From NCBI GenBank assembly GCA_029098225.1, contig JAQXNX010000010.1, positions 248,001-312,000 on the forward strand: 64,000 nt of DNA, in the 5' to 3' direction. Origin of the DNA: Spirochaetales bacterium. Lineage in GTDB: Bacteria > Spirochaetota > Spirochaetia > Treponematales > Treponemataceae. The translations under genes were made by a program, and so were the position numbers. Under the pieces are notes generated by a model. That model was not told the origin of the DNA, did not search any database, and worked only from the letters and a program-made list of their open reading frames with translations. Within the stretch, counting starts at the first letter, position 1, and each line of letters begins with the position of its first letter. Below, in pieces: positions 51,700 to 59,559 of the stretch.

Positions 51700-51800
51700 A
51701 ACTCTACTCAAAATTCTACTCCAATAAACCAGCCGTCGGGTTACAAAGCTGTACCTCTGTGCTAAGATAAAATCACAAAGCACTGGCCGGTGTAAGAAGC

Positions 51801-51825
51801 GGTGGTTGAGCCTGTCGAAACCACC
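51801..51825. repeat. Palindrome before the HTH-FliM gene
   Basis: GGTGGTT (51801-51807) and AACCACC (51819-51825) form a stem around GAGCCTGTCGA. The sequence matches a short palindrome dispersed in many bacterial genomes (TTTCGACAGGCTCAA). It ends three bases before the SD of the HTH-FliM gene, so the hairpin could affect its translation. Confidence 0.55.
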
Positions 51826-51838
51826 ACAGGAGGTTACT

Positions 51839-53191
51839 ATGAACGCAGAAAAAACTGGAATTTTAATTTACGACCTGCGCACACGAAAAGGGCTTACTCA
51901 AAAAGAGCTGGCCGAAAAATGTAATGTGAGCGACAAGGCGGTTTCTAAATGGGAACGCGGCGAAGGCTGTCCTGATGTTACGGTGCTGCCAAAACTGGCC
52001 GAGGTTTTTGGAATTGAAGTGGATTCGCTGATGAAGGGTGAAATACCTTTTAGTCAGGATGTGAGCGGAAAGAATATTAAGGATTATAATTTTCGTCAGC
52101 CGGACCGCTACCCTAAATATATGCAGCGTGAGCTTTGGATGATGGGCGAGGATATTTGCCAGGTGCTGAACAGGGAATGTACTTCCATTTTGAATGAGCG
52201 CTGTGAGTTCTGGCGGGAGTCGGTTGACCAGCTTACCAACAGGGAGTTTCTTGCTTCTATTCCACAGAAGTGTTTCTTTTATGATTTTGATTATACAAAT
52301 GTGCAGACCGGCGGCTTTACAGTTGAGGTTGATCCTCAGCTTGCAAAGGCTTTGATGAAACAGGATACTGCTTCTCATGATCAGATTACAGATTTTGATC
52401 TGACTGTTTTCCGCGATTATTTTTTAAGGCTGATTGTTGAAGTTATTTACAAAAATGTGGAGCAGCAGACAGGAGGAACTGTTAGTCTTGATAAACAATG
52501 CCCGCTGGAAAAAGCAAGGCTGGCTGCAACTGCAAACAATTCCCGCCAGGAAGAAAACCGCATGCTTTTGCTTTTGACTCTTAAGGGAAAGCTTGGCAAG
52601 GCAGAAGGCTACATCAATATTCAGTTTAGTGATGTCCTGCTTGAACAGCTTTTAATGAAGGGATATTTTAGCGATGGTTCTGGCAACGGGGCTGGCGCTG
52701 GTGGTGAAAATGGCAGCCGGGGTTCCCGCATAAAGTTTCAGAATCTTTCTAACATCAAAAAGCGCGAAGAGCCCGACAATGTCTTTATTGAGTTTGGCCG
52801 CTTCCGCCCGGAAAATGTTTCTCTTGAACCCGGCACAATTTTGATTCTTGATAAAAAAGAAACAGAGGGGCTCAATGTTGTTTTTGAAAATCGTGTAATC
52901 CATACAGGAAAAACAGTTGCTATCGACGAAAACTTTGGCATTGAAATTGCAGAAACCACCCAGCTTGGTGAAATTATTTATGACGAGGCCGACTATCTTT
53001 CGGTTCAGCTTGGAAGCACATCACTTACAAAACAGGAAATTGCAGCCTTGCATCAGGGCTCCTACATCATCTTAAAACAGCGGGCCGGCGAAATGACACA
53101 AATCCTTCGCGCCGGAAAACTTGTGGCCCTTGGCGAAATCTGTATTGCGGACGATACTTTTGCAATCCGCGTGGTTGAGGTGAAGAAGTAA
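51839..53191 (+). CDS. XRE-type HTH fused to a FliM-like motor-switch protein
   Basis: The ATG at 51839 follows a strong SD (AGGAGG). Residues 6-62 are an XRE HTH (RTRKGLTQKELAEKCNVSDK, WERGEGCPDVTVLPKLAEVF). From residue 80 the sequence matches FliM: YNFRQPDRYPKYMQREL, then ESVDQLTNREFLASIP near 128-142, and LLLLTLKGKLGKAEGYINI near 243. The last part has two SpoA modules (about 312-372 and 386-447), as in FliM/FliN. So a DNA-binding head sits on a full motor-switch body. No flagellar genes are near. Its function is unknown and might link gene control to a switch-like complex. Confidence 0.85.
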   Translation: MNAEKTGILIYDLRTRKGLTQKELAEKCNVSDKAVSKWERGEGCPDVTVLPKLAEVFGIEVDSLMKGEIPFSQDVSGKNIKDYNFRQPDRYPKYMQRELWMMGEDICQVLNRECTSILNERCEFWRESVDQLTNREFLASIPQKCFFYDFDYTNVQTGGFTVEVDPQLAKALMKQDTASHDQITDFDLTVFRDYFLRLIVEVIYKNVEQQTGGTVSLDKQCPLEKARLAATANNSRQEENRMLLLLTLKGKLGKAEGYINIQFSDVLLEQLLMKGYFSDGSGNGAGAGGENGSRGSRIKFQNLSNIKKREEPDNVFIEFGRFRPENVSLEPGTILILDKKETEGLNVVFENRVIHTGKTVAIDENFGIEIAETTQLGEIIYDEADYLSVQLGSTSLTKQEIAALHQGSYIILKQRAGEMTQILRAGKLVALGEICIADDTFAIRVVEVKK

Positions 53192-59067: not shown

Positions 59068-59559
59068 ATGAAAAAGCTTGAATTAAAAAATGATGATTTT
59101 CTTGGGTTTGTAAAACACCTGCGACATGCCTGCCGTGGAATTGTTGTGCATGAGGGCAAGGTTCTTTTAGGTTATGAAGAAAATAATAACAAGTATATTA
59201 TTCCCGGTGGTGGCCTTGAAGATGGCGAAACTTATGAGCAGTGTTGTGAGCGTGAACTTCTGGAAGAAACCGGAATGCAGGTTAGGGCAAAAGAAGAATA
59301 TCTGGAAATTGAAGAACTCTTTTTAGACTGGAACCATATCAATCATTATTTTGTCTGCGAGCTTATAAAAGACACCGGCAGTATAAATCTTACCAAAGCA
59401 GAAAAAGAGGCTGGCTGTACTTTTAAGTGGCTTACGATGGAAGAGGCTCTGAATATTTTTGGCCGATACGAAGAATATCATAAAACAAACATTGCTGATT
59501 TTGGCTTATATCGAAGGGAATATTTTGCATTAAAGGAATATAAAGCCCATGTCAGATAA
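59068..59559 (+). CDS. Nudix hydrolase
   Basis: The 163-residue protein has the Nudix box GGGLEDGETYEQCCERELLEETG followed by the second-half segments LDWNHINHYFVCELIKDTG and FKWLTMEEALNIFG. A nucleotide-type substrate is likely. It overlaps the adenosine-deaminase-like gene by eleven bases, suggesting a joint step in nucleoside handling. Confidence 0.88.
   Translation: MKKLELKNDDFLGFVKHLRHACRGIVVHEGKVLLGYEENNNKYIIPGGGLEDGETYEQCCERELLEETGMQVRAKEEYLEIEELFLDWNHINHYFVCELIKDTGSINLTKAEKEAGCTFKWLTMEEALNIFGRYEEYHKTNIADFGLYRREYFALKEYKAHVR

Follow-up and report, generated by a model that had tools for sequence, protein, structure and literature searches.

Why would a DNA-binding head be joined to a whole body of FliM, a protein usually viewed as a fixed rotor part? 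The question is raised by a gene in the window analysed here (the whole stretch of 64,000 nucleotides from a Spirochaetales bacterium), which lies on the forward strand at 51839..53191, with its ATG at 51839, its stop codon at 53189–53191 and an AGGAGG at 51828–51833 ahead of the ATG. The encoded protein of 450 aa, called HTH-FliM here, consists of an XRE HTH, the middle domain of FliM and a pair of SpoA domains, and is a FliM-FliN fusion like SctQ behind a DNA-binding domain. The XRE (HTH_3) domain covers residues 10–62 (51866..52024; Pfam E 1.9e-16) and is followed by FSQDV at residues 71–75 (52049..52063), a remnant of the FliM N-terminal peptide LSQDEIDxLL. The FliM middle domain (PF02154) occupies residues 83–274 (52085..52660) and contains an MKQD loop at residues 173–183 (52355..52387, by alignment), replacing the GGxG loop with which canonical FliM contacts FliG. 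After a Gly-rich flexible linker (residues 280–310, 52676..52768, pLDDT <50) come a first, FliM-C like SpoA domain (residues ~313–373, 52775..52957) and a second, FliN-like one (residues 386–449, 52994..53185), all on the forward strand.

In domain searches, FliMN_C (Pfam) matched two stretches of the protein, the best at residues 387–448 (E 7.1e-19), and the second SpoA also scored 83.4 bits against the FliN model TIGR02480 of NCBIfam (cut-off 84.05). The first SpoA corresponds to the other FliMN_C stretch, to a FliY SpoA match at 325–372 and to a FliM::FliN fusion match at 311–450. PF02154 covers residues 83–272 at 25.5 bits (E 1.4e-5), below its 27-bit cut-off, and reaches 27.8 bits in the genome search. 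The curated models for the FliM equivalog (TIGR01397; 33.8 vs 219.6 bits) and for SctQ (21 vs 100.8 bits) are both missed. By sequence, the structures nearest to it in the PDB are those of FliN proteins and of the FliM middle domain from H. pylori. An AlphaFold2 model was built on a 28-row family alignment (pLDDT 80.7, pTM 0.50) and compared with the PDB (Z scores) and by Foldseek. It matches the FliM middle domain 4gc8 (Z 22.4, rmsd 2.4, 175 residues), the FliM(SpoA)::FliN fusion 4yxc (Z 15.2, 132 residues) and the P22 c2 HTH (Z 12.5, 65 residues). The structural search therefore recovers both the FliM and the SpoA fold after the HTH, and the XRE head and two SpoA modules proposed by a sequence-only reading of this DNA are confirmed. 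Its further statement that the protein follows FliM closely needs qualifying, since the identity is about 20–24% and the equivalog model is far missed. Helix 1 reads E104-D-I-C107 in the window protein (by eye), and C107 is nearly invariant across the family. The phosphatase active site of CheC, CheX and FliY has the pattern ExxN...P, which by eye the window protein does not show. No in-frame start 55–90 codons before the end, which could give a free SpoA2 product, is conserved in 21 genes or found in the window gene; the standalone SpoA2 pieces of G129 and G111 proved to be relics joined to a NUDIX gene.

How much of the motor interface does this body retain? At the FliG-contact loop, two canonical FliM rows of the alignment read LFGGRG and LFGGTG, while GGxG is absent in all 30 HTH-FliM rows, where a short loop is found together with (M/L)KQ(D/N) or a close variant of it; it is also absent there in 15 of 15 other extra FliM rows. 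According to PMC4938800, the GGPG loop is immobilised upon FliG binding in simulations.

The second contact is with CheY. The linker behind the HTH was scored in 43 rows (40 distinct sequences, some rows being the same protein cut by the locus end), using a matrix trained on 14 canonical and extra peptides of the same genus. The FliM N-terminal peptide LSQxEIDALL binds CheY, and it reads LSQDEIDQLLTAI in the canonical protein at L001. A FliM-type peptide better than shuffles (p ≤0.01) was found in 10 of the 43 rows, two of them from broken copies, and part of the sister clade keeps it after the HTH, such as LTASEIEQLLHAI, ITKEETEALLKEM and LTEEEVQALLAAS. These rows are what speaks for a regulator in which CheY-P binds the linker peptide and the body and thereby alters DNA binding. 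However, several sister-clade linkers are no better than shuffles, and the peptide is missing from every window-type (S/T)QDV linker (p ≥0.17), the window protein itself having FSQDV alone; we regard such a regulator as improbable. Sensing of CheY-P is plausible only in sister-clade members that retain an EIDxLL-like peptide; in the window protein the peptide is deleted. When the window-type linker LSQDVSGKTIKIYDFKRPDRYS (L007) is set against LSQDEID...KKIKIYDFKRPDKFS, the peptide is cut out and both flanks are left, which we take to mean that the head was joined to a whole FliM-FliN protein and that the chemotaxis input was lost later in the window lineage.

The doubt whether two genes had been joined by an assembly error was answered by the family. 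The same chain occurs in many assemblies, including three copies in G076, a genome of about two contigs. In the loci examined there are 40 distinct family sequences, 36 of them full length (≥400 aa with a stop). The fusion is present in at least 26 of 146 genomes of the genus, broken and split copies counted, with up to three copies per genome. A profile search counted matches that start at the first position and reach position 349 or beyond. Such matches exist in 20 of 145 sampled genomes of the bacterial family, representing 3 of 20 genera, and the copies of two of these genomes (G014 and G104) hold stops. Among 392 phylum genomes it is full length in 12, all in those three genera, and two further matches are the HTH alone. 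Beyond the phylum, the range rests on an exact-peptide scan of genome contigs, in which the named records are Treponema, Treponemataceae and Spirochaetaceae MAGs, one labelled water deer omasum; the family may well occur more widely. No relative was found in viral contigs by exact peptide patterns, and among the matches listed for plasmids and phages the HTH part alone was covered.

On the tree, the 30 HTH-FliM rows form one clade (support 98/94). With midpoint rooting, L042/L044 and L045 are the branches nearest to this clade, and the root separates it from canonical FliM and from most of the other extra FliM proteins; L038 and L045 are long branches. In the 28-row family alignment, 27 of 47 invariant columns fall in residues 1–67. 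In nine pairs, dN/dS is 0–0.16 for the HTH, 0.06–0.19 for the linker and FliM_M, and 0.04–0.12 for the SpoA pair. All parts are under purifying selection, with the HTH most constrained, and because dN/dS is low in every segment, both halves are kept in use. The dS values of the segments are very unequal between the window gene and L092 (0.38, 1.66 and 0.90), and such strong differences within one gene pair suggest recombination within the gene. The HTH, FliM_M and SpoA parts of the pair L052/L053 likewise differ greatly in synonymous divergence.

Broken copies were found in G104, G014 and G120. Relic C-terminal pieces joined into a NUDIX gene were also observed at L157 (G129:C26) and L158 (G111:C282), and a relative of that gene lies at 59068–59559 of the window. 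The sporadic presence, the broken copies and the relics suggest that the gene is dispensable. The same breakage and relics are what an artefact, either a chance join or a decaying pseudogene, would have in its favour, but with 36 distinct full-length sequences and purifying selection on every part, such an explanation has a practically negligible chance of being right.

The surroundings contain no obvious partner. Ten window neighbours were tested with Pfam, of which nine match (MFS, RsgA, GrpB, PIN, metallo-beta-lactamase fold, DUF1848, a second XRE, methyltransferase and NUDIX) and one has no match. No flagellar domain and no secretion domain was found among these ten, so the earlier observation of no flagellar gene nearby holds for them. 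The genome has a normal FliM (G000:C3) and FliG away from the gene. Across 35 loci, no neighbour within 7 kb is conserved beyond close-kin synteny and common families, and an operon partner was therefore rejected. The largest families near the gene, named by eye, are ABC transporters (9 loci) and histidine phosphatases (6 loci), and a same-strand gene starts within 100 nt downstream in 9 of 35 loci, the kinds mostly differing. An integron or repeat array was also rejected, for no clear repeat units surround the gene, and neither Rfam matches nor a tRNA were found in the window.

In contrast to the neighbours, the upstream region is conserved. An operator-like array at 51702..51745 (forward strand) contains CTCTAC at 51702–51707, TTCTAC at 51714–51719 and the conserved block GTCGGGTTACA at 51735–51745. 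It overlaps a possible promoter, placed by eye at 51740..51768 on the same strand, which has GTTACA at 51740–51745, a spacer of 17 bp and TAAGAT at 51763–51768, with TG one base before TAAGAT. Each hexamer agrees with the consensus at 4 of 6 positions (by eye). A sigma-70 consensus scan needing at least 9 of 12 positions called no promoter in the window; better -10s, e.g. TATACT, exist upstream of the gene in some relatives. In the leader, a short inverted repeat GGTGGTT...AACCACC (51802..51826, forward strand) was not seen at the same place in the leaders of relatives, and a leader hairpin was rejected as folding no better than shuffles. The repeat-like sequence GGTTGAGCCTGTCGAAACCACC occupies 51804–51825, and a near copy lies inverted upstream of L065 and L070.

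Generally, genes of the family are preceded by an array of TCTAC half-sites ending in GTCGGGTKACA. Clades A (the window clade), B and C as well as L038 have TTCTAC-type copies followed 15–16 nt on by GTCGGGTKACA or a variant, and the element is common to clades whose proteins are only about 36–40% identical. The identity between 11 clade A and 10 clade C upstream regions is 0.55 over 50 positions, a figure raised by anchoring; without the ten anchored columns it is 0.47, which is fairer, vs 0.30 when shuffled (sd 1.7%, max 0.35). Further upstream of the element the two clades are 24–30% identical, and 45–48% around the likely -10. The pattern occurs once in the window and not in 100 shuffles. 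In 23 chosen regions there are 2.8 half-sites per upstream region vs 0.19 in shuffled sequences, mostly 12, 20–22 or 10 apart.

The element is closely tied to the gene. In 50 genomes, TCTACN{13,18}GTCGGRTKAC has 28 occurrences, of which 27 are ahead of an HTH-FliM gene (that of G136 runs off its contig) and one, in G197, is an orphan. It was found neither in 14 genomes without the gene nor in the reversed control, and in the window's own genome it is located solely at this gene. In the loci examined, 23 of 24 distinct sites have the ATG of the gene 72–201 nt past the site start. A similar picture was obtained with GTAGAATTCTACT in 30 genomes (13 of 15 places precede the gene, the remaining 2 lie inside unrelated coding sequence, and the reversed control gives 1) and with the tandem element of clade A in 20 genomes (15 of 15 exact matches precede the gene), whose inexact matches number 99 vs 244 in the control. 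With two mismatches allowed in nine genomes, 15 of 22 matches are at HTH-FliM genes and the other 7 all carry two mismatches, while the control has 33 matches; in the window's own genome, such a two-mismatch site precedes an SSB-like gene (named by eye). A one-mismatch site common to four genomes, inside an apparent methyl-accepting protein gene, was set aside as chance.

The tie has exceptions. The exact element is absent before the gene in 13 of 36 gene-bearing genomes. Substituted or shifted forms exist in nine of them (G034, G025, G133, G103, G191, G190, G153, G168 and G079), no TCTAC array was found before the genes of G176, G197 and G210, which are intact as far as the contigs reach, and G120 has a broken gene with its leader replaced and no array. 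The arrayless L145, L146 and L110 (G176, G197 and G210) belong to one genus and have another linker type, PPSCTTLATDYPD. Second copies without the exact element are G111:C127, G139:C25, G076:C1:2947707 and G228:C9. Promoter copies without a gene were observed at L135/L140 (G197:C39) and L165 (G228:C23), and the inexact G228 match looks like a relic of an HTH-FliM promoter.

This conserved, gene-tied element is a candidate site for specific binding of the HTH near the promoter. It might instead be bound by another factor, the HTH of this protein acting elsewhere: XRE-type HTH matches are numerous in these genomes, and three genomes have the gene without the array. Nevertheless, the exact element tracks the gene rather than the genome, and we give this explanation a slim chance.

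The same distribution bears on a link with the motor. The body may dock on C-ring FliN/FliY, FliM or FliH through its SpoA domains while unassembled protein binds DNA, so that flagellar transcription or its own tracks the state of the motor. In a single chain, such a sensor would parallel the FlhG-FliM-FlrA loop, in which FlhG relays C-ring status to FlrA and contacts the FliM N-terminus, as described in a review (PMC12826062), and it would suit the FliM/FliN turnover reported in E. coli motors (PMC10128058). A full FliM-FliN body under purifying selection is in keeping with such a sensor. A FliG_C match exists in 37 of 37 genomes searched, and a FliM match (E <1e-79) in 31 of 37, the other six being 66–85% complete. 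On the other hand, the FliG-contact loop is missing, the N-terminal peptide is deleted in the window lineage, and inexact sites are not above control in the genomes scanned. Moreover, three 20-kb stretches of the window's own genome (around fliM, fliG and a second fliG-like gene) have no element match better than 4 mismatches. We consider this sensor unlikely. Titration by the motor with flagellar output, one of the functions suggested before, is weakened in the same way, because GGxG is missing in 30 rows and the exact element in its own genome stands at this gene alone.

The reading we prefer, tentatively and with slightly less than an even chance, is that HTH-FliM is a solitary, autoregulated transcription factor with an exapted rotor body. 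In a Treponemataceae ancestor, an XRE head would have been added ahead of an entire FliM-FliN fusion that still had its N-terminal peptide. The body would then have lost its rotor contacts, the GGxG loop family-wide and the CheY-binding peptide in the window lineage. Together, FliM_M and the two SpoA domains would form a compact oligomerising body, placing several HTHs along a series of TCTAC half-sites separated by roughly one or two turns of the helix; with this series just upstream of the gene's own promoter, the outcome would be cooperative autoregulation, most likely negative. A partner that binds the body, be it CheY-P (in the sister clade), a SpoA protein or some other protein, may change the DNA-bound state. 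Cooperative binding through the body is proposed because of the half-site spacing and because Spa33 complexes form elongated arrays in vitro (PMC4832279), and repression would agree with an array placed next to the likely -35. Part of a motor thus seems to have been turned into a self-controlling regulator. Among the options offered by the sequence-only reading, another use of the switch fold fits best.

Sole self-regulation would leave the output to the cell without an account, which counts against the autoregulator, as do the three genomes without the array, the promoter scan that called nothing in the window and the signs that the gene is dispensable. The cell may gain motor sensing, CheY-P input (in the sister clade) or dose control of a protein acting elsewhere; there may also be degenerate targets elsewhere in the genome. 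Dose control leads to an alternative rotor part, whose body acts at the motor or export gate, e.g. as a FliN/FliH decoy, while the HTH merely holds the dose. A single self-directed element would suit it, and the SpoA pair resembles 4yxc, a FliM::FliN fusion whose structure was determined together with FliH, but without the GGxG loop, and with a full-length member missing from 125 of 145 relatives searched, we hold such a part to be as doubtful as the CheY-P-responsive regulator. A one-piece switch from rotor to gene, with the body assembling on the half-sites in a rotor-like manner and occupancy governed by components of the motor or, for sister-clade members, by CheY-P, appears rather unlikely; if true, chemotaxis or motor state would write directly to a promoter. 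For the autoregulator, an element almost solely at its own gene offers a simple first test with one promoter and one protein. Behind the DNA-binding head, selection maintains a whole FliM body along with its built-in FliN, and the stepwise loss of motor contacts is visible across living clades. This makes it possible to ask directly which functions the switch fold can take on away from the motor, and whether subunits assembling as in a rotor are able to organise a regulator on DNA.

Compared with known systems, HTH-FliM shares with FliM the middle-domain fold, the SVDQLTxxEFLxSIP stretch and the SpoA behind it. It differs by an XRE head instead of the free N-terminal peptide, KQD in place of the GGxG FliG loop, an additional FliN-like SpoA, a score far under the equivalog cut-off and no flagellar gene among the neighbours tested. 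XRE regulators that carry other C-terminal domains are already known, and self-directed sites are common among XRE regulators; the HTH fold resembles those of SinR, P22 c2 and C.AhdI (Z 11.1, 12.5 and 11.2). SctQ is likewise known as a FliM-FliN fusion, and the open-licence literature searched gave no union of the two, in which a FliM body would be attached to an XRE regulator, in agreement with the earlier suspicion that the protein is undescribed. SctQ/Spa33/SpaO of the type III secretion ring also have two SpoA domains in one chain. Full-length Spa33 is the counterpart of a FliM-FliN fusion, and internal translation yields a free SpoA product according to PMC4832279, whereas HTH-FliM has a DNA-binding head, falls far below the SctQ cut-off, and lacks both a conserved internal start and a secretion domain in its ten neighbours.

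The extra FliM-SpoA-SpoA genes of the same genus (L043, L045 and L073) are also FliM-FliN fusions without GGxG. Unlike HTH-FliM, the extra FliM-SpoA-SpoA and FliG-like genes have no HTH, and most retain an EIDxLL-like peptide; some are located in islands with FliG_C proteins, and one is fused to UPF0227 and FliG (L045 710–3160, G058:C6; one chain of 816 aa with UPF0227 hydrolase, FliM, SpoA, FliG_M and FliG_C). For example, L071 (G104:C6:56500–76400) contains by Pfam a FliM-SpoA-SpoA protein with the EIDxLL peptide, FliG_C proteins, a type I restriction-modification fusion, a WYL regulator, DnaB_C-like proteins and an HNH protein, so that paralogues of rotor proteins lie within an island of defence-like character. 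Further contigs on which FliM and FliG_C matches occur together are G111:C299, G111:C228 and G058:C39, and the extra FliM proteins of L074, L049 and L077 (G058, G016 and G066) have two tandem EIDxLL-like peptides and, by alignment, a single SpoA. Finally, FlhG/FleN with FlrA/FleQ resembles HTH-FliM in that C-ring status is linked to transcription, as described in PMC12826062; that system relies on an ATPase in contact with FliM and with a separate regulator, whereas in HTH-FliM the rotor body and the DNA-binding domain are one chain.
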